DNA of 50,923 bases, from contig FMBT01000561.1 in assembly GCA_900095095.1 (NCBI GenBank), positions 1 to 50,923 on the forward strand, read 5' to 3'. The notes beneath the pieces are model-generated. The model was given only the letters and a program-made list of their open reading frames with translations, made no database searches and had not been told where the DNA came from. Origin of the DNA: Fragilariopsis cylindrus CCMP1102 (Eukaryota; Bacillariophyta; Bacillariophyceae; Bacillariales; Bacillariaceae). A program made the position numbers and the translations under genes. Positions 3,591 to 48,466 of the stretch are shown piece after piece; the first letter of the stretch is position 1, and each line of letters opens with the position of its first letter.

Positions 3591-4854
3591 TTCGTTTGCG
3601 GGAAATACCGGTTTTATATGTGTATTGAGACGATAAGTAGGTCCTGGAGTGACTCATTCATCTATCCTTAATCATGATATTGGTGTGAATGATATGTCCA
3701 GTTGCTCGATCCTATTTAGGGTTTTTTACTGGAGAACTGATTAGAGTTGAAGTTGTCGCATTCTCTCTTGATGATGAGTGAGTCGACGCGGGGCTCGAGT
3801 AAAAGTGAATAATGTTGTTTATAATATTATGATCTGACAACAGGAAAGAAAATTGGCGTCGCGATTTGCGTCGTGGTAGTCGCTTGGTCAGCCAAAATCC
3901 GTATTTGTGGCTTCACATAACCTACTTCCGGACCAAAACTGTTCAATATTAGCTCGGATAGTACAGTAGTCGTACAATTTTATCTCTCCGAAAATATCAA
4001 TCAAAAACATACGTTTAGCTTCAACAGGTCTAGTTAGGAAGGGAAATGTGTACTTCAACGGCACGTGGGAAGGTGAGCTTAGTCAATAGCCGTTGTAGTC
4101 GTAGTAGTCTTGGTTAGCTGCGTCATCGTTTAGGAATGCTCATTTTAGCATCAGTCAGGAAAAAACAAAGGATTCCAAATGCAAGTATTTGTAGTCGCGT
4201 CCTAGCAAGTGTTTTACATAATAATATTATTATACTAGTAATATATAATATATATTCCCTCTCCCCTAACGTCAGCTCGAGATTTTCAAATCTGCTAACT
4301 GACATTTTGGGACTTAGAAAATGTCACAGAACAACCGATATATCAAATGAAAATAGTCCAATGATATCTAGATGATGTAAGAGAATAATGGAGATGATAG
4401 TCACCCAGCAGCATATGAGGTGCGGTTGTTATCTAGTAATAAAACAGATTGCGTAAATCGTTTATTAATATAACAATAATATACTATAATGTAATGTTTC
4501 TTTAGCATATACTCTATAGTTTGATTTGTAGTCCTCCTCCCTTATGCGCCTCTTCTGGCGATTCGAAATTTGCAGTACCACCTTACAGAATTCCCCCCAA
4601 ATGACCAAATTACACTGAAACTGTTCATCCGTATTAAATGGATCGAGAGTTAAATATAGGCAGCAGTACAATTTTAGATTATATTGACTAAGTTGCTCCT
4701 CTTCACGAGCTACGTAGTCCCTATCAGGATTCAATTCCTCTACGATGGGTACTAAGATACAGTTTACGCAGATCTATTCATTCTTCTTCTTCTACTACTT
4801 CTTCTAACCGTTCACAAAGCGAGCCACGTATCCCCCACACGGGCTATATCTTTT
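3591..4854. other. Intergenic, no supported gene
   Basis: Only short frames occur. The longest, about 89 codons on the minus strand at 4465-4734, starts at TTG and resembles nothing I know. The stretch separates the 5' side of the PS/PT gene from the 3' side of ORC3. Confidence 0.5.
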
Positions 4855-7800
4855 TCAACACCATACCACGGCAACCTTTTCATACGTGATCACTTCATTT
4901 TGTTGCTTTCCGCGTTGTTGTTGTTTCCACGTCGTTGTGGTGGGTTTCTTCCTAGGTCGGATCAATCCACATTTACGTAAAGTCCAAACCCCTATAGCAA
5001 AATCTTCCACGGTACCACCAAATGTATTGTACCAATCATCTCGATCAACTGACAATCGTCCCTCTAATAGTTCGTATAGTTGTCGCGATCCATATGGTAA
5101 GTTATCTAATATCCTTCGTCGGAAATTAATCGGCCGTCCATCATTTATATTATTATTGTTAGGGTTGTTGTGAGTATTCCTCGTTTCTTCTTCTTCTTCT
5201 ACCAGAGGTAGTGGTGGTGGTGTCATTATCGGCATCGGCATGAGAGGATTGATTTCAATCCAACGACGGGTCCAAAATTCAACTCGTTCTAATACAAGAT
5301 GATTGATTTTTAATATTGTTTCTGTTATCCCCCTACGAATCTTCTTCTCGTTTCTAATACTACTAGTTATAGTAACTGTACTATTATTAGTACGGTTTTT
5401 TTCTTCGTCTTCTTTGTCATCGTTTTTGTTAGTATTGTTGTTGCTAGTATTCGTCGTTGTCCTCCTCAAGGCCTCAACGAATACAATCATTTGTCGTACT
5501 ATTGTAATAAGTTCATGTCGCTTTTGTTGATCAATTCCATTCATTTTTCTACTACTACTACTACTACTACTACTTCTATTACTAGGACTATTATTATTTT
5601 TGGTCGTCTTCTCCTTATCACCACCTACTATGATTCCTCTTTGCAAATATCGTCGAAGTGTCCTTTCAACATGATCTTGATCATCATCTTGATCATCGTC
5701 ATTATTCTCGTTTTCGTTTTCGTTATTGATATTCGTTTCATTAAATGTAGTAGCGGCAGTAGCAGCAGTGGTAGTAGTTTTTGCAGTAGTAGTAGTAGTA
5801 GTAGTAGCTACTGCTGCAGCTCCTGCCTCACTACTACTACTACCAATAATGATGCTGTCATCGTCGTCGTTGGTGGTGGCAGGGGGATGTGTTGTTTCCA
5901 CCATCATGGGAACGTCTTCTTCGTCTCCTTCTTCTTCTCCTTCTTCTTCTTGAGTTGTAACGTCAACTACGTCTACGTCAACGTCTACGTCTACTTCAAT
6001 TTGTTTATAAACATCTGCCAATTGTTCTAACGTCCAATTATATTGTTGTTGATATTGTTGATGTCCTGACGATGAAAATAGAACACCTACCTCATTTTCA
6101 TTTTCATTCTCATTCTCAGTTGACGTTGTTGTTCTTGTTGTTGTTGTCGATGTGGTTGTGAGTGAAAGAATATGTAAGGGTAATAATGAACATGAAATTT
6201 TCCACCAAAATTGTAAATATCCATCATGATTATTCTTATTACTTTTTTTCGACTTTGATTTTAATAAATTATAACAATATAATAATGAATTGCATTTATC
6301 ATTTAATGACATACCCTCCTGATTGTTACTACTACAAGATGATAAAAGTTTTTGTGCATTATGATAAGAACAAAACCATGCGACAAATTCTGGTTGATAT
6401 ATATTCACATTATCAGTACCAATCATATTGTATAATAATGATGATGTGGATGATAAGGATGTTGATGTTGATAATGATAAATGTTTTTGATCATCATTCT
6501 GTTGTTGTTGTTGCTGTTTCTGTTGTACTGAATTAGTTGAATTTGAGTTTGAGTTTAAGTCTGAATTTGTTTTAGAATTTGTATTTGTATTTGTATCATT
6601 TGCATTTAAGTCTAATGATGAATTTGAATTTGAATTTACTGATAATGTATTCCATACAAAGGAACCTTTATATATAAAGAAATTCGATATCAAATATAAT
6701 TTTAATTTTTGACTAAATGTTGTACATGATATGGTACCACCTAATGTATCTTGACATAAGCGTAACATAACTGCATTTGTTGCTGTTGCTGAAGAAGAGA
6801 TTGCTGAATTTGAATTTGTGGATGATGTTGTTGATGGCACTACTAATAATGGCATTGGTGTATCTTTCATTTCATTTAAAAAGTATTGACACCAAATAGC
6901 TGTACCCATATTCGTATTTGGTGATGGTACTACTGCGCATAAATTTGAATATGAGGACTGTGGAATTTGACATCGTATTGTACGTATACCAAATCTTCCA
7001 CCATTCCCATTATAGTTGGATGGATTTAATAATATATTATTGGATTGGAGTTCATATTTCGAACCAATGGAATTTAATACTATTAAACTAATAGGTATAC
7101 CATAGTTCGTTCTCCATTCGATTACTGTTTCTAATAATTGAGTTTGTACTATATTATTACTAGAAACACCACTGCTACCGTCTTGACTATGAATAACTCC
7201 TGGATCTTCTAATAATAATATTAAATTTCCATGTTGTTGTTGACTTTGACTTTTACGATTGCCATTCTGACTCTGACTCTGACCATTCTGACTCTGATTC
7301 TGCTGACGTTCCTGACGTTTGCGTTTGCGTTTGTTATTATTGGTTGAGTCGTCACCCTCATCCTCATCCATCTTCGTTTCTATTGTTGTTGTTGTTGGTC
7401 CATTATTGTTATCATTGTCGTCATACAGATATTTTAAATAGTCTAATATAAAATCTTGTATACTTTGTTGTCTTTTACTTGCTGTTCCCTTCAATGCAAT
7501 TCCTTTACGATCCACTAAATGTTCGTAATGTTTACGTTTTGATACATTATAGGAATATTTTTTTGTATAAGCAGCTGAAGAATCAACATTTGAATAATGA
7601 AATTGTTCAATATCATCATCAAACTCATCCATCTTTGGTCTAATATGTGTATTCTCAAAATGATTTATTAATGCATCCCATATTAGTTGTAACGTTTCTG
7701 TCCAACTTGATAACAATCTTGGTATATATAAACATATTGTATTATTTGAATTTGTATTACTGTTCTTGTTGTTCTCTTTATTATTTTTGTTACTTTCATT

Positions 7801-9208: not shown

Positions 9209-9872
9209 ATGAAATTATCCACCACATTACTAGCTTTATTTGCTGCTGTTATTGCAGCGTGTACCATGATGGACCAAGCCGATGCTCGCGTTGGGGGAGA
9301 TCGCGATCTCGGTTGGCATGAGAAGTATACTATATACTTTGCCAACAGTTGTAACACTGATGTCAAAGTACAGATCAACTCGGGTCACAGACTTGACCGA
9401 GAGCAAACAATCTCAGCAAATAGCTGCCAGGTGTTCCAAAGAGGTAGTCAAATTGAAGGCCCCAGTGTCACCTATACCGAATTGGGTATCGACGGAGCTA
9501 CACAGGTTGCATCTTGCCATCACTCTAACACCAACCATTGCAACTTAATGGGTATGGCTAATAACGCTTGTGTTATTCCACTCGCTGAATGTCCAGATCC
9601 TGTTTCAACTCCTACCCAACTGACTCTCCAACTCGAGCGCCAACTCATCTCCAACGAGTCCACCTTCTCCTGGAAAACAATGTGGTCGCAAATGTAACAA
9701 CCGTTATGAATGTTCAAATAAAGACGGGATGGTAGACAAAGGGTTTCCATATTGTGGTGCTGCATGCACAAATAATCGTTGTCAACCTTTCTATTTAGAA
9801 TGTAACAGTGACTCTGATTGTAATCCAAATAGTACTGTTTGTGGAGAGCAAGGATTTTGTGTTGGAAAGTAA
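9209..9872 (+). CDS. Secreted Cys-rich protein with PT linker, two frame breaks
   Basis: It starts with a clear signal peptide (MKLSTTLLALFAAVIAACTM). The N-terminal domain holds Cys in FANSCNTDVKVQIN, ANSCQVF, SCHH, HCNL, NNACVI and AECPDP. A PT-rich linker follows, then a C-terminal Cys domain: GKQCGRKCNNRYEC, FPYCGAACTNNRCQ, CNSDSDC and VCGEQGFCVGK, then TAA at 9870. The frame changes twice inside the linker (about 9615 and 9646), each equal to loss of one base; with both restored the length is 666 nt, 221 residues. The uncorrected frame ends at 9697 and loses the whole second Cys domain. The second domain resembles short EB/EGF-like disulfide modules, but I do not recognise the family. 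Probably secreted or cell-wall associated. Confidence 0.6.
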
Positions 9873-35914: not shown

Positions 35915-36740
35915 GAATCGAGAATTGAATTGGAAACATACATGTACACAAATAAAAAGGGCTAGAGAGGAAAGTATATCTAAAACAAAAGTCGTAAGCA
36001 TTGAATCAGCGATGTATAATAGCTAAACCAATACATTGAATATAAATAACTACTGCATATTTTTTAATATTATATTATAAAAATTCCTAGACCTACTAGT
36101 AGTGATAGCTTGATAGTAGCATACGCAGTTGTACATTCTTTGTACAAATATTACTATTCTATATAGAACGACGACAACATACATCAAAACCTCCCGGTTG
36201 TCGTCTTAATTGTATTAAAACTTGTGTGAATATTTACCATTGACGGGTTCATGATTTTCTCGATTGTTATACGCGTCACACACAGTCGCTATAATGTAAT
36301 CAGCTTTCTAAAGCCAGTAGTATTCCCTGTCAAATACCGCTACCCCGTACAATTCAACGAGATATCATCTCGTAGCCGAATTCGCGAAAGTCGTCCCAAT
36401 ATATATCCTCAATCAATAGCAGGTTGTCATTCGTTAGGTTATGTATACCGAGTTCCTTACTATAGCTTGTCTTTCCAATTTTTTGATTGATTCGTCAGCT
36501 TAAGGGGCAAATTGTATATTTCCATTAGATTTGAAAATTCTTCCCTTAGATTTTCAAACCGAAGCACGTGTTTGACAATTTTCTTGTTTTGGTCGACATC
36601 GTACACGTAATCGTACTGTGGAATCAAGTGTCCTCTATTTTAAGAACGCACAGGCGCGCGAATTGAATACAGTATCATAGTCATTAGTGTGATCGCTCCG
36701 ATGATTATGATTTTTGAAAAAGATCCATTTTCCACGCTAG
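35915..36740. other. Intergenic, no supported gene
   Basis: Plain AT-rich sequence between the secreted gene and the duplicated promoter module; short frames only. Confidence 0.45.
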
Positions 36741-37160
36741 ATAATAGGCAGTACAGTCTACTGTAGCCTAGTCTCGTATATGCTGGATTGACCTGCCCTA
36801 TCATACAAGTATTAGAAGAGAAAACAAAACAAACAAACGGACAAAAATGATTTCATCATCATTGTCATCATCATTCAGACCCTTCCGCTTGCTGAGACTG
36901 AGAAGGCTGACGCCGACGCCGACGTTAACGCTGGGGAGCCTACTACTACTACTACTCGTTCTGTCTTCATTCCAACACCAATCATTATTACTATTTACAA
37001 CACCATTTGCTTTCAACAGCAACAGCAACAACAACAATGGTGCTGTTATTAGGAAGAGATCAACATCAGCAATTGTTGTTGGTGGTGGTGCCACTACTAC
37101 CCGATTATCAGCAGTATCGACAACGTCGTCGTCATCGATGTCGAAATCATCATCATCCGC
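36741..37160 (+). repeat. Copy 1 of the shared promoter/presequence module (GDPD gene)
   Basis: Starts at ataataggcagtacagtcta (36741) and runs through the leader, the ATG and about 100 codons (to the Ser run near SKSSSS). It matches 40770-41137 upstream of and within the bestrophin gene, with small indels. Beyond it the two genes are unrelated. Confidence 0.8.
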
Positions 37161-38445
37161 GTCATCCTCATCCTCATCATCATTGTTGTTGTCGTCATCC
37201 TTGAGCGAAGACAAAGAAGACGACAAACATCAGCAGCAGCTGCAGCAGCAGCAAGAAGAAGAAGACAAAAAAGAAGAAACCAACGTGTTATTAGAAGAAA
37301 AAGGAACGAATAAAAATCAATTCTATTCACTTCGAAAAGTATTGGGTATTGATGATGACAACAATGATGAGATTGACAACAATGACAGCAGCAGTAGTAG
37401 TAAATTTCCAGATATTGTTGGTCATCGTGGTTGTCTATATGAGGAATTAGAAAATACAAGAGAAGGCTTTCTGAAATGTAATGAAATGGGTTGTGATAGT
37501 ATTGAGTTAGATGTATTCAAAATCTATACAAATAATAATAATAGTAATTGTAGTAGTAGTGACAATAATATTACAAGTGAAATAATTGTATTTCATGGTG
37601 GTGGAACAGATGAATCCAATCCTGGTGATTTATTCGATTATTGTGGTGTGGAAGGATCGATATTAGATTATAATTCGATGAACGATATACAAAAATTGAA
37701 ATTTAATAGTCATCATCAAGAATTTCAATGTCCAATCAATAAAATTGAAAAGGGTAGAATTCCAACACTACGACAAGTATTGTTAGATACAAAAGAATAT
37801 AATACTAAACACCGTAACTGTACAGGCAGCAGAGATAATAATAATCCAGATCATATGAAAATTATAATTGAATTAAAAGGACCGGATATCAGTATTGTTA
37901 ATGACGTTCTCAAATTAGTAGATGAATTAAATGTTACCACTATCTGTTCCTATTCCAGTTTTGATTTGAAAAAATTAAAATTATTACGAAAATTAAAACC
38001 AAATAAACAACAATACCGAACATGTGCCTTATATAATAATATTACTCCAACAGGTATAATATTAGATGACTATGAATATCAGAATCAGAATATTTTGAAT
38101 TGTTCTATGGATTGTGGTGTCACAGATATACATTTAAAATATGATACGTGCTACAAGAATTTGATTACCAAAATACACCAACAAGGATTTCATACAATGG
38201 GTTGGATGCGTGGTCCAATTGGTATGAAACATGATATTCTAAATAAATATAATGACTGCAATGACAATAACAATAATAATAATGATGATACTGGGAGTAG
38301 TAGTAGTAATAGTAGTCAATGTGAAGATGATGGTGATGGTGAAGAAAACACTAAACTGTATGAAATTTTAATACAAACTGGTGTACAATCATTATGTATA
38401 AATAAACCAAATTTATTAATTGATATGCGTAATAAAATGAATTAG
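36847..38445 (+). CDS. GDPD-family phosphodiesterase with plastid presequence
   Basis: Glycerophosphodiester phosphodiesterases hydrolyse deacylated phospholipids to glycerol-3-phosphate and an alcohol. The catalytic domain starts at about residue 187: IVGHRGCLYEELENTREGF with the HRG and ENT signatures, then CDSIELDV (metal-binding Glu/Asp), later RIPTLRQVLLDTKEYN, KIIIELKGPD, GFHTMGWMRGP and GVQSLCINKPNLL, all in family order. Where most members have His-Asp after a hydrophobic strand, this one has IIVFHGGGTDE, so the His is kept and the Asp is not. Residues 1-56 are a signal peptide ending in TTPFAFNS; an Ala-Phe junction followed by Ser/Asn and VIRKRS fits diatom plastid import. 532 residues; linker 90-185 is Ser/Gln/Glu filler. 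It ends 28 bases before the convergent gene. Confidence 0.8.
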   Translation: MISSSLSSSFRPFRLLRLRRLTPTPTLTLGSLLLLLLVLSSFQHQSLLLFTTPFAFNSNSNNNNGAVIRKRSTSAIVVGGGATTTRLSAVSTTSSSSMSKSSSSASSSSSSSLLLSSSLSEDKEDDKHQQQLQQQQEEEDKKEETNVLLEEKGTNKNQFYSLRKVLGIDDDNNDEIDNNDSSSSSKFPDIVGHRGCLYEELENTREGFLKCNEMGCDSIELDVFKIYTNNNNSNCSSSDNNITSEIIVFHGGGTDESNPGDLFDYCGVEGSILDYNSMNDIQKLKFNSHHQEFQCPINKIEKGRIPTLRQVLLDTKEYNTKHRNCTGSRDNNNPDHMKIIIELKGPDISIVNDVLKLVDELNVTTICSYSSFDLKKLKLLRKLKPNKQQYRTCALYNNITPTGIILDDYEYQNQNILNCSMDCGVTDIHLKYDTCYKNLITKIHQQGFHTMGWMRGPIGMKHDILNKYNDCNDNNNNNNDDTGSSSSNSSQCEDDGDGEENTKLYEILIQTGVQSLCINKPNLLIDMRNKMN

Positions 38446-38473
38446 TGTTGAAATACTTATAGAGGATAATAAC

Positions 38474-39913
38474 TCACAGAATCCATAATAGTAGAATAAT
38501 CAATAGTAAAATAATTACTAGGAATGGACCGAATTGTGATAAGATCGATGATGTATAAGTATCTTTACTATGAACAGTAAATGAACCTTGGAAGAAAATA
38601 AAATCTTTACCATCAACAGTAAATGAACCTTGGAAGAACATAAGGAACAATAATTCCATCGTACCCCAATCATACCGTCCTTTATATCCTATTCTGTTTA
38701 ATATTTTTGCAACATGACCATGACCTCCAATTCCATCGAAACGATCAATAGCTTCATCCCATTCTTCGGATTGTCCATTAATATCTACTGCAATATCCAC
38801 TTTTAAATATCGTACCGGAAGACCGACTCCCATACGTGAATATTGAATGCGAGGGGAATATTCAATGAGAGGATCGAAATGGCCTCGGTTATCGAAACAG
38901 CCTTCTGCATCATTTGGCTGGCCTATGCTATCACTTATACCCATATGTCCAAAAAAGGGAAGGAATGATGTTATAGGATGCAAGGGTGACCATAATATAC
39001 AACATGATAGTAAATCAATATTATTTGAATGTTGTTCTTGTTCTAGCGGTTGTAGTACTACTGCATCCGATAGTTTCATCTTTGGTGGTGATTCTATTGG
39101 CGGTTCCGATTGATGTAGGAAGGTGTGAAGTGGCTTGCTGTACCTGTATCGGCTTCCTGAAGTCCATATTGGTGGAATCCATGCATGTTGTTTGCTAAAC
39201 ATTTGGTTCATCAAGTCCTGAATGGCTACATACTTATTTTCCACATCCATGTCGTCGTCATGTAGAATGGTGAGGTATACATGGTGGTCAAACGCGTCAT
39301 ACCTTGTCATAGGCATGAACCGTTGTATATTATATGGATCATCCTTGTATAGATTGCTTCTGTAACAGCTTCCTTCAAGCCGAAACACTAGCTTTAGTGC
39401 TTCGATCTCCTCCTCTTTGATGCCATCGTATGGGATAATTGGCACTGTTCTTCTTCTCGTTGCTGATGGCGGTTCAAATTGATGTAGGAAGGTATGAAGT
39501 GGCATGTTATACCTGTATCGGCTTTCTGAAGCCCATGTTGGTGGAATCCATGCATGTTGTGTGCTAAACATTTGCTTTATCAAGTCCTGAATGGCTACAT
39601 ACTTCTTTTCCACATCCATGTCGTCGTCATGTAGGGTGGTGAGGTATACATGGTAGTCCGACGGGTCATACCTTGTCATAGGCATCATGAACCGTTGTAT
39701 ATTATATGGATCTTCCTTGTATAGATTGCTTCTGTAACTAAGTGACGGTGTGTCAATCCATGTATATGTCGTCTCTGGGTATGGTGGGTAAGGTGTGCTT
39801 CCGCCAAGCCGAAACACTCGCTTTAGTGCTTCGATCTCCTCCTCTTTGATGCCATCGTATGGGATAAACCCTGGAGGCATTTTCCTACCATCTCTTGGTG
39901 TTGACATTGGCAT
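38474..39913 (-). CDS. Tail-anchored protein with internal duplication
   Basis: I start at the ATG 39913 (MPMSTPRDGRKMPPG); the open frame extends three codons further but only to a TTG. The 479-residue product has two copies of a block of about 115-130 residues: IPYDGIKEEEIEALK, YRSNLYK(E/D)DPYNIQRFM, TLHDDDMDVE or ILHDDDMDVE, KYVAIQDL, QHAWIPP and PLHTFLHQ. A unique part follows (WSPLHPITSFLPFFGHMG, then PVRYLKVDIAVDING), next a small FFQGSFTV duplication, and finally a strongly hydrophobic C-terminus (FLVIILLLIILLLWIL), typical of a tail anchor. I do not recognise the fold. The gene sits between the two copies of the presequence module, on the opposite strand. Confidence 0.6.
   Translation of the reverse strand: MPMSTPRDGRKMPPGFIPYDGIKEEEIEALKRVFRLGGSTPYPPYPETTYTWIDTPSLSYRSNLYKEDPYNIQRFMMPMTRYDPSDYHVYLTTLHDDDMDVEKKYVAIQDLIKQMFSTQHAWIPPTWASESRYRYNMPLHTFLHQFEPPSATRRRTVPIIPYDGIKEEEIEALKLVFRLEGSCYRSNLYKDDPYNIQRFMPMTRYDAFDHHVYLTILHDDDMDVENKYVAIQDLMNQMFSKQHAWIPPIWTSGSRYRYSKPLHTFLHQSEPPIESPPKMKLSDAVVLQPLEQEQHSNNIDLLSCCILWSPLHPITSFLPFFGHMGISDSIGQPNDAEGCFDNRGHFDPLIEYSPRIQYSRMGVGLPVRYLKVDIAVDINGQSEEWDEAIDRFDGIGGHGHVAKILNRIGYKGRYDWGTMELLFLMFFQGSFTVDGKDFIFFQGSFTVHSKDTYTSSILSQFGPFLVIILLLIILLLWIL
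39100..39867. repeat. Recent tandem duplication inside the tail-anchored gene
   Basis: 39100-39438 and 39468-39867 are close copies, with differences mostly single bases; the second has about 60 extra bases coding STPYPPYPETTYTWIDTPSL. A shorter 42-bp duplication lies at about 38566-38640 (aaatgaaccttggaagaa twice). Confidence 0.85.
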
Positions 39914-40769
39914 TGTGTCCAATGTACTCTAATGCGTCCTACTTGACTTCTTATTAGTCGTTGTCTAAATATGATATCTTTTTGACAATGCCTGTCTCTA
40001 TCTCTCTTTTTTTCTTCTTCTTTCTTCTTCTCTCTCCCTCTGTTGTTGGGTCGTGTCCTTTATCGACAACTGAACTGTTATTGTGCTTACAAGAAAATTG
40101 TTGCTATTACCTTATGTTAAACGCTGCGTTAGGACTGGACATATGGTAGCAAACGAAAAGGAAGAGATTAGAGTATTCCATTCGCTTAGATATATATTGT
40201 GATATCGAAGGTGTTTGACACTTGACGCGACGCGACTACTTCCCGGGCCTGATTGAAAGTCAGATGTGGATCGTGTCTGAGCTTTCGTGTATGAATAAGT
40301 GTGATACAGAATACACGACTGAAAATTCTCAGCGTCTGTCCGTGATTAAGTCGATACGTTTCCTTTCCAGAGATATATTTCATCGGCAGTTGATCGTTCC
40401 CCCGAACACAGAGAGAAGAGTTCTTTACTACTACTTCTGAAGTACGATGTTGTGATGTTAAAAAAAGATCCATTTCCAACATTAAACATCATCCATCAGT
40501 TCCGATACACCATGGCATTATCGCTCTTTTGCCTTTCTTTTCTTCGTTCGTCAAGGTAGCAATCATACAATAATCTAACTAACTAACATAACTAACATAA
40601 CTAACTAACTTTAACCGAGGACGGTAGCATTTGTGAGTACTATTCTACGCATTACAGTACAGTACAATATCGCATTGATTGGCACGAACGAATTCAGTAC
40701 AGGTAATGTTTCTGATTACAATACCCGCTATTCAATAACAATATCATCAAAACAAGACAAGCCAAGCAA
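39914..40769. other. Intergenic, no supported gene
   Basis: Contains ctaactaactaacataac-type repeats at about 40576-40612. The short open frames present do not start convincingly. Confidence 0.45.
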
Positions 40770-41092
40770 ATAATAGGCAGTACAGTCTACTGTAGTCTAG
40801 TCTGTGTATGCTGGATTGATCTGTGCCCGTACAAGTATTATTAGAAAGAGAAAACAAACAAACAATGATTTCATCATCATTCAAAGCCTTCCGCTTATTG
40901 CTGAGTAGGCTGACACCGACGTTGACGCTGAGTCTACTACTGCTGTTTTTATCACAACAGCACTCATCGTTATTTACATTTGCTTTCAACAGCAACAGCA
41001 ACAATGTTGCCGTTATTAGGAAGAGAACAGCAGTTGGTGGTTGTGGTGCCATAACTACGCGTGCTGCTTGCACCCGATTATCAGTAGTATCA

Positions 41093-41123
<31 letters not shown>

Positions 41124-41137
41124 AATCGTCATCATCA
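40770..41137 (+). repeat. Copy 2 of the shared promoter/presequence module (bestrophin gene)
   Basis: Matches 36741-37160: ataataggcagtacagtctac, tgctggattga, tacaagtatta, agagaaaacaaac, then atgatttcatcatcatt and the coding start MISSS...LTPT...FAFNSNSNN...AVIRKR...TRLS, ending in a (cgt)n Ser run. Confidence 0.8.
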
Positions 41138-42687
41138 GACAACACTTATATAATTAATGGTGACCTACTTCTGGAAACTTTTGGTGCCGATCTTGATTTT
41201 GATTTTGAATTGGATGATTTTGTTGGTCAAGATATACTTGAAGAATTAAATTTTGATCTTGATACATCCATTACTGAACAACCTGTTATGTTTGCAGGCA
41301 CAGCAGGACAAGAAAAGCAAAATAATAGTCAAGATAGTTTTGATTTTGAACGATGGGATATACATCGTTCACCAACACGATATTTTCGTTTATTGTATGG
41401 ATTATTTGCTGGTATAACTACCAAACGTATAACACCCACTGTCATCTATATACTACTATGGAGTAGTTGTATTGATCTATATAATGCTATTGAATCTAAT
41501 TATGGTTTACCAGAAGTGGAATTACCAATCACACCATTTGAACTAGCTGGACCAGTACTGGGATTATTATTAGTATTTCGAAGTAATACAGCCTTTGAAC
41601 GATTTAATGTGGGTAGTGATGCAACATGGGAAATCACTGGACGATTTAAATCCATTATACGACAATTATTATCATTTACATCTGCACGACGAACAACAGG
41701 AGGATATTCCAAAGAAGAACGTATTGCTGCATATGAATTAGTGGATGCATGTTTTATATTACATGGTTGGATATTATGTGATTATTTAAGAAAAAGTTCA
41801 AGTTCAAATCAAAGTAGTCAGAATCAAAGTAGTCAGAATAAACAAAAAAAATACTACAGAAAGCATTAGCATTACCATCAGATATTACACAACAGTTATG
41901 GACTAGAAATGATGATTATAATAATGATGATGACAGTAACGAATCATCAAATTCAAGATCAAATCCGTCAAATTCAAATCCATCATCAAATTCAAATTCA
42001 CAATCATTACGTAATTTATTACGGAAACAACAAGAACAACAATACTATGATGATTATCATCAAAGTCCATCAGCATTAATTAATATCATAACATTAGGTA
42101 TAATGACAAGAATACCAACATTAGATCCAGAGGAGACAACATGTATAGAAGAACAATTTGTGGAAATTATATCATCGTTAGGTACATGTGAAAAATTATT
42201 AAGAACACCAATACCATTGGGATATACCAGATATTCCGTACGATTTGTGATGATATGGTTAACACTGCTTCCATTTGCATTAGTACGAACATTTGCAGAA
42301 TTTGGTACCAATACCTGGTGGGAGGGTAGATTTCAACCAGTATTAGTCATTGCAATGATATTTTTAAGTGTGGTTTTTTTAAGTATTGAAGATATATCAG
42401 TCCAAATTGAAGAACCATTCTGTATCCTGCCATTAGATTTACATCATAAATGGTTGAAACGTGATATTGTACAAATGAAACGAACATCGAAATTAGTCGA
42501 TGGTATATATAATAATAATAACGTGAATAATAATAATAAAGATAAAAAGATAACAACAACTGGTTCCACTACCAAAGAGACCAACAGTAATAAAGAACGA
42601 CGATTGCAGAAATTTGGTAATCGATTACGGTCACGGTTCACAAATACAAAAAATCATGAAAATGATAATAATGATAATCACGAGTGA
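40865..42687 (+). CDS. Bestrophin-family anion channel, plastid-targeted, one frame break
   Basis: Bestrophins are pentameric chloride/bicarbonate channels; algal plastid members sit in thylakoids and are linked to bicarbonate supply or ion balance. The ATG at 40865 begins a signal peptide ending LFTFAFNSNSN, then VIRKR, as in the phosphodiesterase gene. The channel domain starts near SPTRYFRLLYGLFAGITTKR, with ITPFELAGPVLGLLLVFRSN and TAFERF (pore helix region) and GRFKSIIRQL. The frame then breaks at an A-run (about 41839-41848); adding one base continues as KILQKALALPSDITQQLW and on to FVEIISSLGTCEKLLRTPIP, ALVRTFAEFG and SIEDISVQIEEPFCILPLDL, the family's typical C-terminal calcium-clasp/cytosolic region. 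Corrected length 1824 nt, 607 residues. Without the base the protein stops at 334. Confidence 0.78.
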
Positions 42688-42818: not shown

Positions 42819-44144
42819 CTACTCGGTGGAGAGACTACGTTTTTCCGAGAAAAGTGGACCCTCTCTAATCAAATAGAACATAGCAGTGGCATCGTACGTG
42901 CTGCCGCCAGTAGTTCTAGTATATGGTTGTGCACCAAGAATTATGGAGGTACGATAAGATCGTTCTAACACCTTGGGCCATAAGTTGAGGGGAAGGATTT
43001 TTTTACCACCATCGCTATCAGTATTGTTACTCCCTCCTTCTCCTCCTTCTCCTCCTCCTCCTCCTCCTCCTCCTCCTCCTCCTCCTCCTCCTCCTCCTCC
43101 TCCTCCTCCTCCTCCATCAACCAAAAAACGTCCACCACGATTGATTTTAGTCCAATATTCAATTTCAGAGGTCGGCCGAATAGATGATCTTTTTGTATGT
43201 CCAAGCCATTGCAATCTTTTAAAATATTTCAAAAGATATATCACCACGGAATGATCTAATGACGATGTTGTTTTGAGACTGGGAAAGCAAGGATTACCAG
43301 CCAGACAAAAAGATCTGAGTCCGGACGATGAATTTGAATCTGAATTTTTCATCTGTATTTTCGTTGCCATCTTTACTCCGATTCTTTGCAAACTCTCAAT
43401 CTTGTTTTTATGAAAATTAAGGGAGACGATATTAGGATACAATGGCAATAAGTCGAAGACAATAGTTGCTACATCAACTTCAATTATGCCACAATCTTGA
43501 ATTCGAAGCTTTCTTAAATTGTTCATTCGATTTGAAATATCAGGTTCTAACAATGCAGTAATGAAAAAATTGGTAGTATCTCTCAACAGCTTACTAAGAC
43601 GAAGATTGGTAAGTTTCGGAGCATATATTGATAACCAAGATATTATGGACGTGATTTGTGTTGCGTCCCAGATAACATGATCAATACAGAGGGTATCCAA
43701 TGCTGGCATTTCTACTTGAGGTAAATCAATTATTATTTGATCATCACAATAACATAAATCCAATCGTTTCAATGACACCACATCTACTATCTCTGGTGGA
43801 ATAAAGGAACACTTCCATAAAGATAGGTGGTTTAGACCACAAATACTTCCAATTCGTGGTGACAACCTCCATTCATCCGATGCATTGTTTAGATGACGAC
43901 CCAGATATAATTTAGTGACAGTATTATTGTGACAACTACTATCAGTAACCCAATACCATTTCTTATGACCATTTAATGCTGCGAGCGAAACTATAGACTC
44001 TCCTGTATCTGTAAAAAGATGTGCAATCGTCCTAATTTGATCGAAACTCAAAGAGAACGGAAACTTCACATCGGGATTTGAAAGATATTCTCCGACCCTT
44101 CGTCTTGAAATAATGCTGGCGTCGTTGCTATTGTTTTCTGTCAT
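42819..44144 (-). CDS. Leucine-rich-repeat protein with poly-Gly tract
   Basis: 441 residues from ATG 44144. The middle shows irregular LRRs (ICGLNHLSLWKC, VSLKRLDLCYC, MPALDTLCIDHV, APKLTNLRLSKL, NNLRKLRIQDCGI, YPNIVSLNFHKNKI, GLRSFCLAGNPCFP), the kind abundant in diatoms, usually protein-binding. A Gly run of over twenty residues near 345-368 comes from a pure (CCT)n array on the plus strand. There is no signal peptide or membrane segment, so it is probably intracellular. The end of the gene lies 131 bases from the bestrophin stop, in convergent orientation. Confidence 0.65.
   Translation of the reverse strand: MTENNSNDASIISRRRVGEYLSNPDVKFPFSLSFDQIRTIAHLFTDTGESIVSLAALNGHKKWYWVTDSSCHNNTVTKLYLGRHLNNASDEWRLSPRIGSICGLNHLSLWKCSFIPPEIVDVVSLKRLDLCYCDDQIIIDLPQVEMPALDTLCIDHVIWDATQITSIISWLSIYAPKLTNLRLSKLLRDTTNFFITALLEPDISNRMNNLRKLRIQDCGIIEVDVATIVFDLLPLYPNIVSLNFHKNKIESLQRIGVKMATKIQMKNSDSNSSSGLRSFCLAGNPCFPSLKTTSSLDHSVVIYLLKYFKRLQWLGHTKRSSIRPTSEIEYWTKINRGGRFLVDGGGGGGGGGGGGGGGGGGGGGGEGGEGGSNNTDSDGGKKILPLNLWPKVLERSYRTSIILGAQPYTRTTGGSTYDATAMFYLIREGPLFSEKRSLSTE
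43050..43115. repeat. (CCT)22 trinucleotide array coding poly-Gly
   Basis: About 22 uninterrupted triplets, flanked by imperfect ones to the left (43030-43050). Long pure arrays of this kind are usually length-variable. Confidence 0.9.
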
Positions 44145-45297: not shown

Positions 45298-45507
45298 CAA
45301 CAACAACAAAAACAACAAAAACAACAACAACAATATGGTTGTTTCGGTGATCAGCTACAATACGGCTATGGATGACAACAACCTCAACACCAGTACGGCG
45401 GATACGGAGGAGGATATGGAGGACAAAAAGAACACCGAGCTGTTTATCTTGAAGATCGACGAAGTCGAAGTGGGGGTAGAATTAATACTTGTGCGACAAC
45501 GATATAG
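45298..45507 (+). pseudogene. Q/G/Y-rich tail beyond nonsense codons
   Basis: In frame with the preceding gene, after TAA, come QQQQKQQKQQQQQYGCFGDQ and LQYGYG, then TGA at 45373-45375, then QQPQHQYGGYGGGYGGQKEH to TAG at 45505. TAA among CAA codons and TGA before CAA-CAA are each one base from a sense codon. An overlapping frame (ATG 45334) is open too, but its codons end in G/C much more than genes nearby. Confidence 0.4.
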
Positions 45508-45679
45508 CCGAATTGCTCTAAAAATTAGTAAACGGTAATATAATTAGTAACGATGATTAATGTTAGTAATTTTTCGATTTTCAATTTTCAATTCCAATTT
45601 TCATTGTTTCGGGTAGTTAGTTGCAAGAGTACAGTAATTATTGTAGTACAGTATACTAATTATTATTATGAACTCGCTT

Positions 45680-46369
45680 TTATACTACTGTACGAAGTTG
45701 TTCATTTGAGACTTCAATGTACCAATTTTCAATTATATCCCTATTCATACACGGTGTTCGACATGCTACTTTGCAAACGCTGTCATTGATGTCATAGGCT
45801 CCCTTGAGGACAATAGTAATATCGTGATCATTGATTGCGGTACAACTATTTTTAATTAAAGTTGTAGTTGCAGCACATAATGCGTGCACCCTTGATGAGG
45901 TTTTGTAGTGCAATACCGAATTAAGCTGGGTAAAGAAAACATTACAAGAGACTAGAATAAGAGTGATGATACTCATAGTTGTAGAATTCAACCAACTATT
46001 ATTATCGGGCCACCAATAATAGGCGCTTAAAAGGATGAGATTGGCCACGATTATAAAAACACAAAATCCACGAAGAATCCATTTTGTCACGACTAGATGT
46101 TGGAGAGCGGTATCGACATCGTTACAAAAATGACTCCATGGTTGTCCTTGCCTGGTTTGGCCGTTGTTCAAGTTGAACAATAAAAATATTTCCGGTGTGG
46201 AACGATTGATTTCGTAATAGTTTTCCGTAAAGAGAACTTTTTCGGTCTTGATATTAGCAACAGCAGCAGCAGTAGTAATAGTAGTTGCAGCGGTAACAAC
46301 ATCATAAGCCTCATTAGAAATTGTAGTGTCCATTTTGTATTGATCTTGTTTACTTCCAGTAAATAGCAT
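45680..46369 (-). CDS. Hypothetical two-TM protein
   Basis: 229 residues from ATG 46369. Residues 98-118 (ILRGFCVFIIVANLILLSAY) and 131-150 (TMSIITLILVSCNVFFTQLN) form a hairpin of two membrane helices, followed by a helical VLHYKTSSRVHALCAATTTL and a Cys-containing end. The order of two close helices and then a His/Ser-containing helix recalls SLATT/DUF4231 domains, but I could not confirm it by motif. No signal peptide. Low-complexity Thr/Ala stretch at 24-40. Confidence 0.45.
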   Translation of the reverse strand: MLFTGSKQDQYKMDTTISNEAYDVVTAATTITTAAAVANIKTEKVLFTENYYEINRSTPEIFLLFNLNNGQTRQGQPWSHFCNDVDTALQHLVVTKWILRGFCVFIIVANLILLSAYYWWPDNNSWLNSTTMSIITLILVSCNVFFTQLNSVLHYKTSSRVHALCAATTTLIKNSCTAINDHDITIVLKGAYDINDSVCKVACRTPCMNRDIIENWYIEVSNEQLRTVV

Positions 46370-46489
46370 GAAGGAGGTGTATAAAGTATTATGGTAATAG
46401 TGAATTTCGATATAAAGTTTTAGATAAAGATTCTTATTGTGTGCTTTTTCATCAATATTATTTCAATTTCAACTAAATTTGTGAACGTA

Positions 46490-47739
46490 CTACAGTAGTC
46501 GGTATTTGTGGCTCTACTACAGAAGTACTCTTCGAATTTTACTAGCTAGTTACTTTGGTACTTTCTATGGTCCTATTCTATTATGTAGTTTTTGTTTTTT
46601 GGTTCATTTATTTTATTTTATTTATTTAAGGTAACAGAAAAATGAGAAATTGGCCGGAAGAAGTGGAACACGATTGAAACATAGGAATTGAAATATCCCC
46701 AAAAGAACCCCAATCAAAGAAGCCAAATAAATCAAGATTGAAAAATAGGAATTAAAGTGTCAAGAACACAATAAAGAACAATAGCATTCAATATCACGAA
46801 GTCAAAATAGAAGGGGGGAAATTTGGAAAAAATAACAACCTCTAGTTAGAATGATCATGATTTTGAAAAGTGATCAGAATAGCCAAGCAACGATGCGATG
46901 GTTGTATTCTTACAGATATTTTCAGAAAGAAGGCAACAATATTCATCGTCGTCGTCGTCATCCATCGTCATCCATTGCAATCCATCCTTATCCATCGTCA
47001 TCTATCGTCGTCCACCATTGTCCTCCATCGTCATCATTGTATAAATCTTCATTGTCCATAGAAAAGAATTACAGCTCGCGGTGGAGAGATACCGCTCACA
47101 TTTCCAGCATCTTGCAATCCATCCTTATCCATTGTCATCTATCGTTGTCCTCCATCGTCGTCATTGTATAAATCGTCACCGTCCATAGAATTACAGTTTG
47201 CGGTGAAGAGATACCGCTCACATTTCCAGCATCTTGCAACCCATCCTTATCCATTGTCATCTATCGTCGTCCTCCATCATCGTCATTGTATAAATCGTCA
47301 CCGTCCATAGAATTGCAGTTCGCGGTGAAGAGATACCGCTCACATTTCCAGCCTCTTGTAGTTTCTGAAGTATCTTCGATTTCAAAGAGAGCAAATTGAA
47401 AATTGTGAGACGATATGTGTGATGGATCGAACACATCACAAGCCTAAGATTTATGTTGGTTTTTGTCTTAAAGTAATTAATATGCCTTTTCTACAATTGA
47501 ATTCTTATGATGACACCTGATGTCACAAAAGTCCCCAATGGAACAGAGAAGCCCAATGCAGCAATCAAGGTTTCAAATTGTAGGAATTATAAGTGTATTT
47601 TGAAAATCCCCAATGGAACACTCTTTGATCGTGTAAACGATCCAATGTGTGTGTGTGGGTCGAATTTATTTTTCATCTTGTTTCTACCTTAAGTAAAAGA
47701 GTACTTCTGCAGTAGAGCCACAAATACCGACTACTATAG
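46490..47739. mobile_element. Element bounded by 43-bp inverted repeats (MITE-like)
   Basis: 46490-46532 (ctacagtagtcggtatttgt ...) and 47697-47739 (aagagtacttctgcagtaga ...) are reverse complements over 43 bp with two mismatches. About 1.16 kb lies between, with no transposase frame, but including a triplicated 122-137-bp repeat. I see no matching target-site duplication directly outside, so the ends may be inner parts of a larger element or the site copy has decayed. Probably a non-autonomous DNA transposon. Confidence 0.55.
46977..47360. repeat. Three tandem copies of a 122-137-bp unit
   Basis: Copies begin at about 46977, 47114 and 47236. Each contains ccatccttatccat, a tcgtcctcc(a) run, cattgtataaatc, a ccatagaa(tt) stretch and gcggtg(g/a)agagataccgc followed by tcacatttccagc. 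The gcggt...accgc part can form a 5-bp hairpin in each copy. Confidence 0.8.
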
Positions 47740-47791
47740 GACTTCTTCACTTGCTCCTCACTGCGTTCGTCGCAAGTGAAGAAGTACTATA
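47735..47791. repeat. 19-bp inverted repeat hairpin
   Basis: 47735-47753 (tataggacttcttcacttg) pairs with 47773-47791 with one mismatch, 13 bp of it perfect, around a 19-base loop. It overlaps the outer end of the right inverted repeat. Confidence 0.7.
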
Positions 47792-48466
47792 CGTAAGCGG
47801 TAAAATCAAACAAGGCACGACTAAATTTAGTTAGGTCCTTTGTTTATCTTGTAGTGTTTATTGAGTTTCAATTTAGATCTAACTCTGTACCTTCCATCAA
47901 GAATGGCAAATAAAAATAGATGAAATAGATGTCACAAAAGATCACAAATCACAAGATAATTCTATAAGTATGTTTACGGCAACGATAGCGGTCTATTATG
48001 CATCTAATATATGTATCGGACATTTTCTCTTGTTTTAGTGCTACCACAAACCCTATCGCGTAACTTCAGCTCAAAATGATCAAATAGCAAAATCAAATAA
48101 AAGATGATTAGTTTATTCTGATTTATGTTCTGTCCCAACTTTGGCTTGAGACACAAGTGGGGCCTTACTACATGTACTTAGTTCTATACTATCATGTAGA
48201 TATTCACTCGAACACATATACGGGGAACCAAATCGCGATGAGAAGCGATTTGGTGGACCGATTTTGATCTGTGATAAATACAGTCCAATATTCTATAACT
48301 GAGGAGTAAGAACGATGGGAACGCACGTGTGGGATATATGTTTTTAAGCATGTGATTTGATATACGTAAACGATCTATTATTGCTCATCAAAGCAAAAAG
48401 CTCTAAACCGCTTCTCGAAAAGGATGCATAGCTGGTGGCTCATCTACAAATAGCTTTTACAACACA
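47792..48466. other. Intergenic, no supported gene
   Basis: AT-rich; nothing recognised. Confidence 0.4.

Follow-up and report, generated by a model that had tools for sequence, protein, structure and literature searches.

Nuclear genes are already known to acquire targeting presequences copied from unrelated nuclear genes (PMC2631504, PMC8018952, PMC3022921, PMC3017844). Rice rps11-1 has a signal copied from atp2, Arabidopsis sdh3 one from hsp70 and carrot rps10 one from hsp22, and a promoter acquired by chromosomal recombination is described for rice rpl27 (PMC2631504). In Populus and other Malpighiales, rpl32 carries the transit peptide of SOD1 through exon shuffling of a duplicated gene (PMC8018952). 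For a diatom, Thalassiosira oceanica, a transit-peptide exon of the nuclear PETF gene has been proposed to derive from a gene such as LI818 (PMC3022921). Here, we describe a related arrangement in the diatom Fragilariopsis cylindrus CCMP1102. The stretch analysed, hereafter the window, comprises the 50,923 nt of contig FMBT01000561.1 (C336); within it, a glycerophosphodiester phosphodiesterase (GDPD) gene and a bestrophin gene have in common their upstream DNA, 5' leader, start codon and the coding sequence of a predicted plastid presequence.

As in rps11-1, sdh3 and rps10, a targeting N-terminus, here a predicted one, would have been copied from a nuclear gene onto an unrelated body; those genes moved from the mitochondrion, whereas both bodies here look ordinarily nuclear, lie 4 kb apart and had upstream DNA copied as well. 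The rpl32/SOD1 case likewise involves a presequence common to two unrelated proteins after a duplication (a plastid presequence there, one predicted as such here), but it is described as exon shuffling, whereas at this locus the seam, in a tract of serine triplets, is crossed by an open frame. In PETF the resemblance lies in the diatom host and in the proposal that a targeting exon and a promoter were gained as a module through rearrangement; for PETF only a candidate donor is named and the module forms a separate exon, whereas the present locus shows the two copies, the limits of each and the two haplotypes. A promoter moved between genes in rpl27, as here, where upstream DNA, leader and presequence form one piece. 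The open-licence literature in PMC, by titles and the beginnings of abstracts, gave no paper describing this locus.

Positions 36741-37160 align to 40770-41136 (69% identity with gaps counted; E = 2e-48 in a search of the whole genome). The homology spans upstream DNA, leader, start codon and about 90-100 codons, in agreement with the initial annotation, which had placed its end at about 100 codons. The first 34 nt (36741-36774 and 40770-40803) are 97% identical, and a run of 28 nt farther on (37004-37031 and 40977-41004) is 100% identical. Runs of Ser and Asn triplets are frequent in the open reading frames (ORFs) of the window, which lends some colour to the idea of a chance likeness between low-complexity codons; an assembly artefact would be a second trivial explanation. 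The non-coding DNA, taken by itself, refutes the former. From -108 to -1 relative to the start codon, the two window genes align with a score of 117, compared with a mean of 15.9 and a maximum of 26 for shuffled sequences (n = 500; z = 40). From -345 to -1, the GDPD allele of a second contig (C642) aligns to the window bestrophin with a score of 319 (shuffles: mean 21.5, maximum 35, n = 500; z = 97), and all comparisons over this range that use the C642 GDPD allele give z values of 86-97. The alignment is thus more than Ser/Asn codons, its upstream part alone standing 40-97 standard deviations above shuffles. The same arrangement is present on two diverged contigs, which disposes of the artefact, and both trivial explanations are exceedingly improbable.

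The genome searched comprises 67.9 Mb in 818 contigs, and searches within it score the best candidates only and skip simple repeats. This genome encodes, at 100% identity, a 251-residue stretch of the solved ice-binding protein 6a8k, which comes from F. cylindrus. A DNA search for further copies gave, with either segment, an identical set of four places, two each on C336 and C642, and a protein search with the presequence returned the four copies and two weak matches (E = 0.004 and 0.07). A dispersed repeat or many-copy module is not supported, as these DNA and protein searches gave only four strong matches; within the upstream DNA, a piece of 47 bp is matched at 87% in two places, one on C88 and one on C184 (E = 7e-7). 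C642 is colinear, with gaps, to window positions 24178-50891, with a mean substitution difference of 5.9% over 22,089 aligned bases, and carries the GDPD gene, an intervening RTE1-like gene and the bestrophin gene in the same order as the window. Given this colinearity and gene order, we read C642 as a diverged second haplotype; highly diverged haplotypes are described for this species (PMC5634323).

Downstream of the shared part the two genes differ entirely in kind, as had been proposed, with both bodies scoring above Pfam cut-offs. The GDPD gene (36847..38445, forward strand) is an uninterrupted ORF of 532 residues, whose body is taken to begin at about 37399 and contains GHRG...ENT...IELDV. 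The HRG/ENT/ExD motif of glycerophosphodiester phosphodiesterases has a catalytic role. The Pfam family (PF03009) only just passes its cut-off of 23.6 bits, with 28.2 bits in the window and 25.7 bits in C642, and the GHRGC..ENT..IELDV motif aligns weakly with 1o1z (E = 0.007) and 4oec (E = 0.017). A scan of a prokaryote contig collection with the GDPD body found no relative. The bestrophin assignment is firmer: Bestrophin_2 (PF25539; cut-off 27 bits) scores 60.6 and 75.6 bits in two window frames and 141.6 bits in the C642 allele, and the solved bestrophin 7ek1 is matched with E = 9e-18. In the window, the bestrophin gene is open from 40865 to 41869 (forward strand, 334 residues) and is interrupted near 41850 at a run of eight A (41844-41851); the remaining open stretch (42103..42687, forward strand, 194 residues from its first ATG) lies in another frame, whereas the C642 allele is open for 625 residues. 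Since the 132 codons compared downstream of the break hold one non-synonymous against 16 synonymous differences between the alleles, the break is likely either an error of long reads at a homopolymer or a change of very recent date.

The shared coding parts occupy 36847..37156 in the GDPD gene and 40865..41136 in the bestrophin gene, both on the forward strand, and the homology ends within a Ser run at about 37156 and 41136, respectively. The coding match can be followed to a Lys inside the Ser run, after which the sequences diverge; the codons at this point are TCG AAA TCR TCA TCA in three copies and TCG AAA GCG TCA TCA in the C642 bestrophin. In all four copies the seam falls at in-frame TCN (Ser) codons and a single open frame crosses it, with no intron there of the kind that exon shuffling would place. 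The N-termini are thus homologous on unrelated bodies and the homology is confined to the 5' ends, stopping before the mature domains, which is the pattern by which presequence acquisition is recognized. In the 300 bp past the Ser run no homology was found (the score of 23 was reached by 24 of 300 mononucleotide shuffles). This bears on a body swap, in which a complete gene, front end included, was duplicated and one of the copies later had its body exchanged. Such a history would yield an identical shared 5' segment, but it takes more steps and has left no trace of homology in those 300 bp; we regard it as improbable. A duplication of the 5' end alone is preferred, and we suggest the serine tract as an in-frame joining point that would allow capture without an intron.

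The extent of the shared upstream DNA differs between the haplotypes. In the window, the GDPD gene shares with the bestrophin gene the DNA and leader immediately before its start codon (36741..36846, forward strand, aligned to 40770-40864; z = 40). When the C642 GDPD allele is used for comparison, the bestrophin gene shows a longer stretch of shared upstream DNA and leader (40520..40864, forward strand, of which 40770-40864 are common to the window GDPD): the portion at 40520-40777, starting at -345, is 74% identical, and the match as a whole runs over 40520-41136 at 75% identity with gaps. Beyond it, and separated from it by insertions and deletions, are two distal blocks on the same strand, 40447..40475, identical in 29 of 29 nt to C642 GDPD -549..-521, and 40369..40396, 96% identical to -593..-567. 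The window GDPD allele is without about 404 bp relative to C642. A remnant of the distal DNA persists at 36705..36737 (forward strand; window -142..-110, 88% identical to C642 GDPD -546..-514) and directly abuts the deletion junction, homology restarting at -108/-109; it overlaps repeat D16 (36705-36735 and 40450-40480, 81%). Because the C642 block at -546..-514 adjoins position -109 in the window allele, what looks like the start of the module at 36741 marks one side of this deletion.

The limits first assigned to the module therefore hold as an alignment of 36741 with 40770, but the duplicated unit extends farther upstream, and by this comparison it would originally have comprised about 590 bp of upstream DNA and about 300 bp of coding DNA. 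One promoter for both genes and linked expression remain proposals; in the window haplotype, owing to the missing 404 bp, the common part is only the 106 bp beside the ATG. What stands of the capture reading is a unit of upstream DNA, leader and presequence held in common, by duplication, by genes with unrelated bodies. Some co-regulation of the two genes may follow from it. The most conserved upstream block, TACARTCTACTGTWG, was considered as a genome-wide regulatory motif and rejected, as it is not enriched: it has seven matches, four of them in the module copies, compared with three for the reversed control.

The four copies show whether the duplication came before or after the haplotypes separated. 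Among 308 columns free of gaps (-108 through the end of RLSxVS), 37 separate the genes and none the haplotypes, with one cross pattern and two others; singletons number 12 in the window GDPD, nine in the C642 GDPD, four in the window bestrophin and seven in the C642 bestrophin. The duplication is thus older than the haplotype split and has not been homogenized since, and the absence of haplotype-split columns (0 of 308) led us to reject gene conversion within haplotypes. Paralogues differ by about 16-19%, GDPD alleles by about 7-8% and bestrophin alleles by about 4-5%. From these columns and the 5.9% haplotype mean, we estimate one duplication, roughly two to five times as old as the allele split. 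Synonymous divergence (dS) in the presequence broadly agrees (0.21-0.32 between paralogues; 0.118 and 0.070 between alleles). Against this estimate, the second part of the bestrophin body has a dS of up to 0.21 between alleles, equal to the lower paralogue values, and the relative age is accordingly rough. Gap-free mismatch in the non-coding DNA (5.5-11% between paralogues, about 4% between alleles) was not used for age, as gaps absorb differences.

Both copies appear to have evolved apart under coding constraint. The ratio of non-synonymous to synonymous divergence (dN/dS) in the presequence is 0.32-0.48 between paralogues, 0.51 between GDPD alleles and 0.26 between bestrophin alleles, below 1 in all six pairs, although with few sites. 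Gap runs in the coding part are multiples of three in 23 of 23 cases, compared with two of 17 internal runs upstream, as counted by eye and with gaps shared between sequences counted once per sequence, so that the events are not independent.

Diatom plastid signals of the ASAFAP type have a transit part rich in hydroxylated residues; they are characterized by F (or W, Y or L) at +1 of the cleavage site, few acidic residues and a net positive charge (PMC4329603). The shared N-terminus, as predicted from the translations, has the anatomy of such a bipartite signal: all four copies have a basic start, a hydrophobic core (Kyte-Doolittle 2.5-3.0 over 11 residues) and a candidate FA↓FNSN site (F at 37012 in GDPD and at 40985 in bestrophin), followed by a transit-like part and the beginning of the Ser run. 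The bestrophin site of C642 reads FNSNN, and every copy retains FAFNSN. The 20 residues after the site contain three K/R and no D/E in every copy, with a modest two to five S/T, so that a transit part poor in acidic residues and net positive is found in four of four. FA↓FNSN was chosen as the site because it is kept in all copies and a basic stretch comes next.

Proteins of the same genome give a frame of reference. Its light-harvesting complex (LHC) proteins have SA↓FAP-like sites, one reading ATA↓FTTNSNNN and another AFA↓FTLKGGNSNSN. From 104 LHC matches, 18 stretches were taken and 14 scored, among them L071 without its start (no N-terminus was obtained from L070, L075 or L083, and L084, with SAAA↓FAP, was left out); the +1 residue is F in 12 and L in two, a count that describes these proteins and is not an independent test, since the sites were picked by pattern. 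A secretory, endoplasmic reticulum, periplastidic or mitochondrial signal would be the alternative to a plastid one. Several features weigh towards it: compared with the LHC presequences, the Arg/Ser-rich start, the Pro at position -3 in GDPD (TPFA↓F) and a spacing of 11-16 residues from hydrophobic core to site are atypical, the last two being less than ideal for signal peptidase, and each copy holds one or two further candidate sites with S/A at -1 and F/L at +1. Set against these are the F at +1, the following 20 residues with three basic and no acidic side chains, and FAFNSN in all copies. Moreover, the four ice-binding proteins scored (of nine loci) have no candidate site, and a secretory-looking control, the window ORF at 9209, has a single G↓W candidate, after which come two acidic residues. 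We therefore consider a non-plastid signal unlikely. Plastid targeting of both proteins, as initially proposed, is the likely prediction: site, charge and composition fit and FAFNSN is constant, with the additional candidate sites as the discordant element.

The direction of copying is less readily read from the locus. Bestrophins of Phaeodactylum tricornutum and T. pseudonana are described as plastidial, PtBST1-4 and TpBST1-2 localizing to the thylakoid or pyrenoid (PMC11142338). A second bestrophin gene of the F. cylindrus genome (L018) has a hydrophobic N-terminus with MCLA↓FNTM, whereas the three other GDPD genes found in it have no hydrophobic N-terminus. On these grounds, the bestrophin gene appears to be the likelier donor and the GDPD gene the likelier recipient. 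Two points tell against this direction: for the three comparison GDPDs the N-terminus was read from the first ATG with introns not modelled, and further divergent GDPDs may exist, as a six-frame search with PF03009 missed the GDPD of the window itself. The same duplication in the opposite direction, with GDPD as donor, would also suit the four-copy comparison, which contains nothing that roots the duplication, and the window bestrophin is distant from the others of the genome (27-45% identity in matched stretches), so its original N-terminus may have been a different one. Nevertheless, it would have to accommodate the plastid bestrophins of two other diatoms (PMC11142338) and the similar N-terminal design of another bestrophin, absent from three other GDPDs, and we judge it somewhat unlikely.

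Taken together, we propose a single local duplication of a 5' end between neighbouring genes, joined at TCN codons, with bestrophin as the likelier donor and a later loss of about 404 bp, and consider this history moderately probable as a whole. About 0.9 kb (upstream DNA of some 590 bp, then the leader, the start codon and roughly 100 codons) would have been placed onto the other gene, the downstream join falling in, or at the end of, the in-frame TCN tract. No intron or splice site would be needed, because such a tract offers microhomology, preserves the reading frame and places the seam within a tolerant linker. Both bodies would thereby come to bear the same N-terminus (basic n-region, hydrophobic core, FA↓FNSN and a basic stretch free of acidic residues), and the GDPD would be redirected to the plastid. 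The copies would then have diverged under coding constraint, and the window haplotype would later have lost the distal upstream DNA of its GDPD copy.

The gene between the two, outside the shared module, is RTE1-like (38474..39913, reverse strand; Pfam RTE1, 50.2 bits). Its N-terminal extension contains internal repeats (39098-39316 and 39467-39685, 91%) whose layout differs in C642, and a match to MRP-S32 lies below threshold (25.8 bits, cut-off 29.2). It lies tail to tail with the GDPD ORF, with 28 bp between them in the window and a 4-bp overlap on C642, and faces the bestrophin ORF head to head across about 950 bp. Elsewhere, the window at 28591-28960 matches several successive C642 copies (steps of about 190 bp, reverse strand, 4246-5215), so the repeat number there seems to differ between haplotypes. 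The approximately 2.8 kb at 45490-48323 have no listed C642 match inside otherwise colinear haplotypes and are possibly haplotype-specific. A long CTC/CCT triplet run at 43032-43110 encodes poly-Gly in the minus-strand ORF 42819-44144.

Three aspects distinguish this case: upstream DNA and presequence are shared as one piece, the seam lies in a tract of serine triplets and not at an intron, and the copy is young enough that the haplotypes keep different amounts of the shared upstream DNA. More tentatively, and as one possible account only, the unit may be an intron-free plug-in of promoter, leader and bipartite signal, joined through a serine tract, that relocated a GDPD to the plastid in one lineage, the capture being so young that one haplotype has already lost most of the borrowed promoter. 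How nuclear genes come by an organelle address is often reconstructed from ancient cases; at this locus the copy and its limits can still be seen, along with both haplotypes and a neighbouring donor candidate. Public RNA-seq for this species covers six conditions and was made for haplotype-resolved expression (E-MTAB-5024; PMC5634323), so the effect of a shared promoter, and of its partial loss, is directly measurable. If the history proposed here is true, the partial loss of the promoter in one haplotype would constitute a natural, allele-by-allele test of promoter capture.

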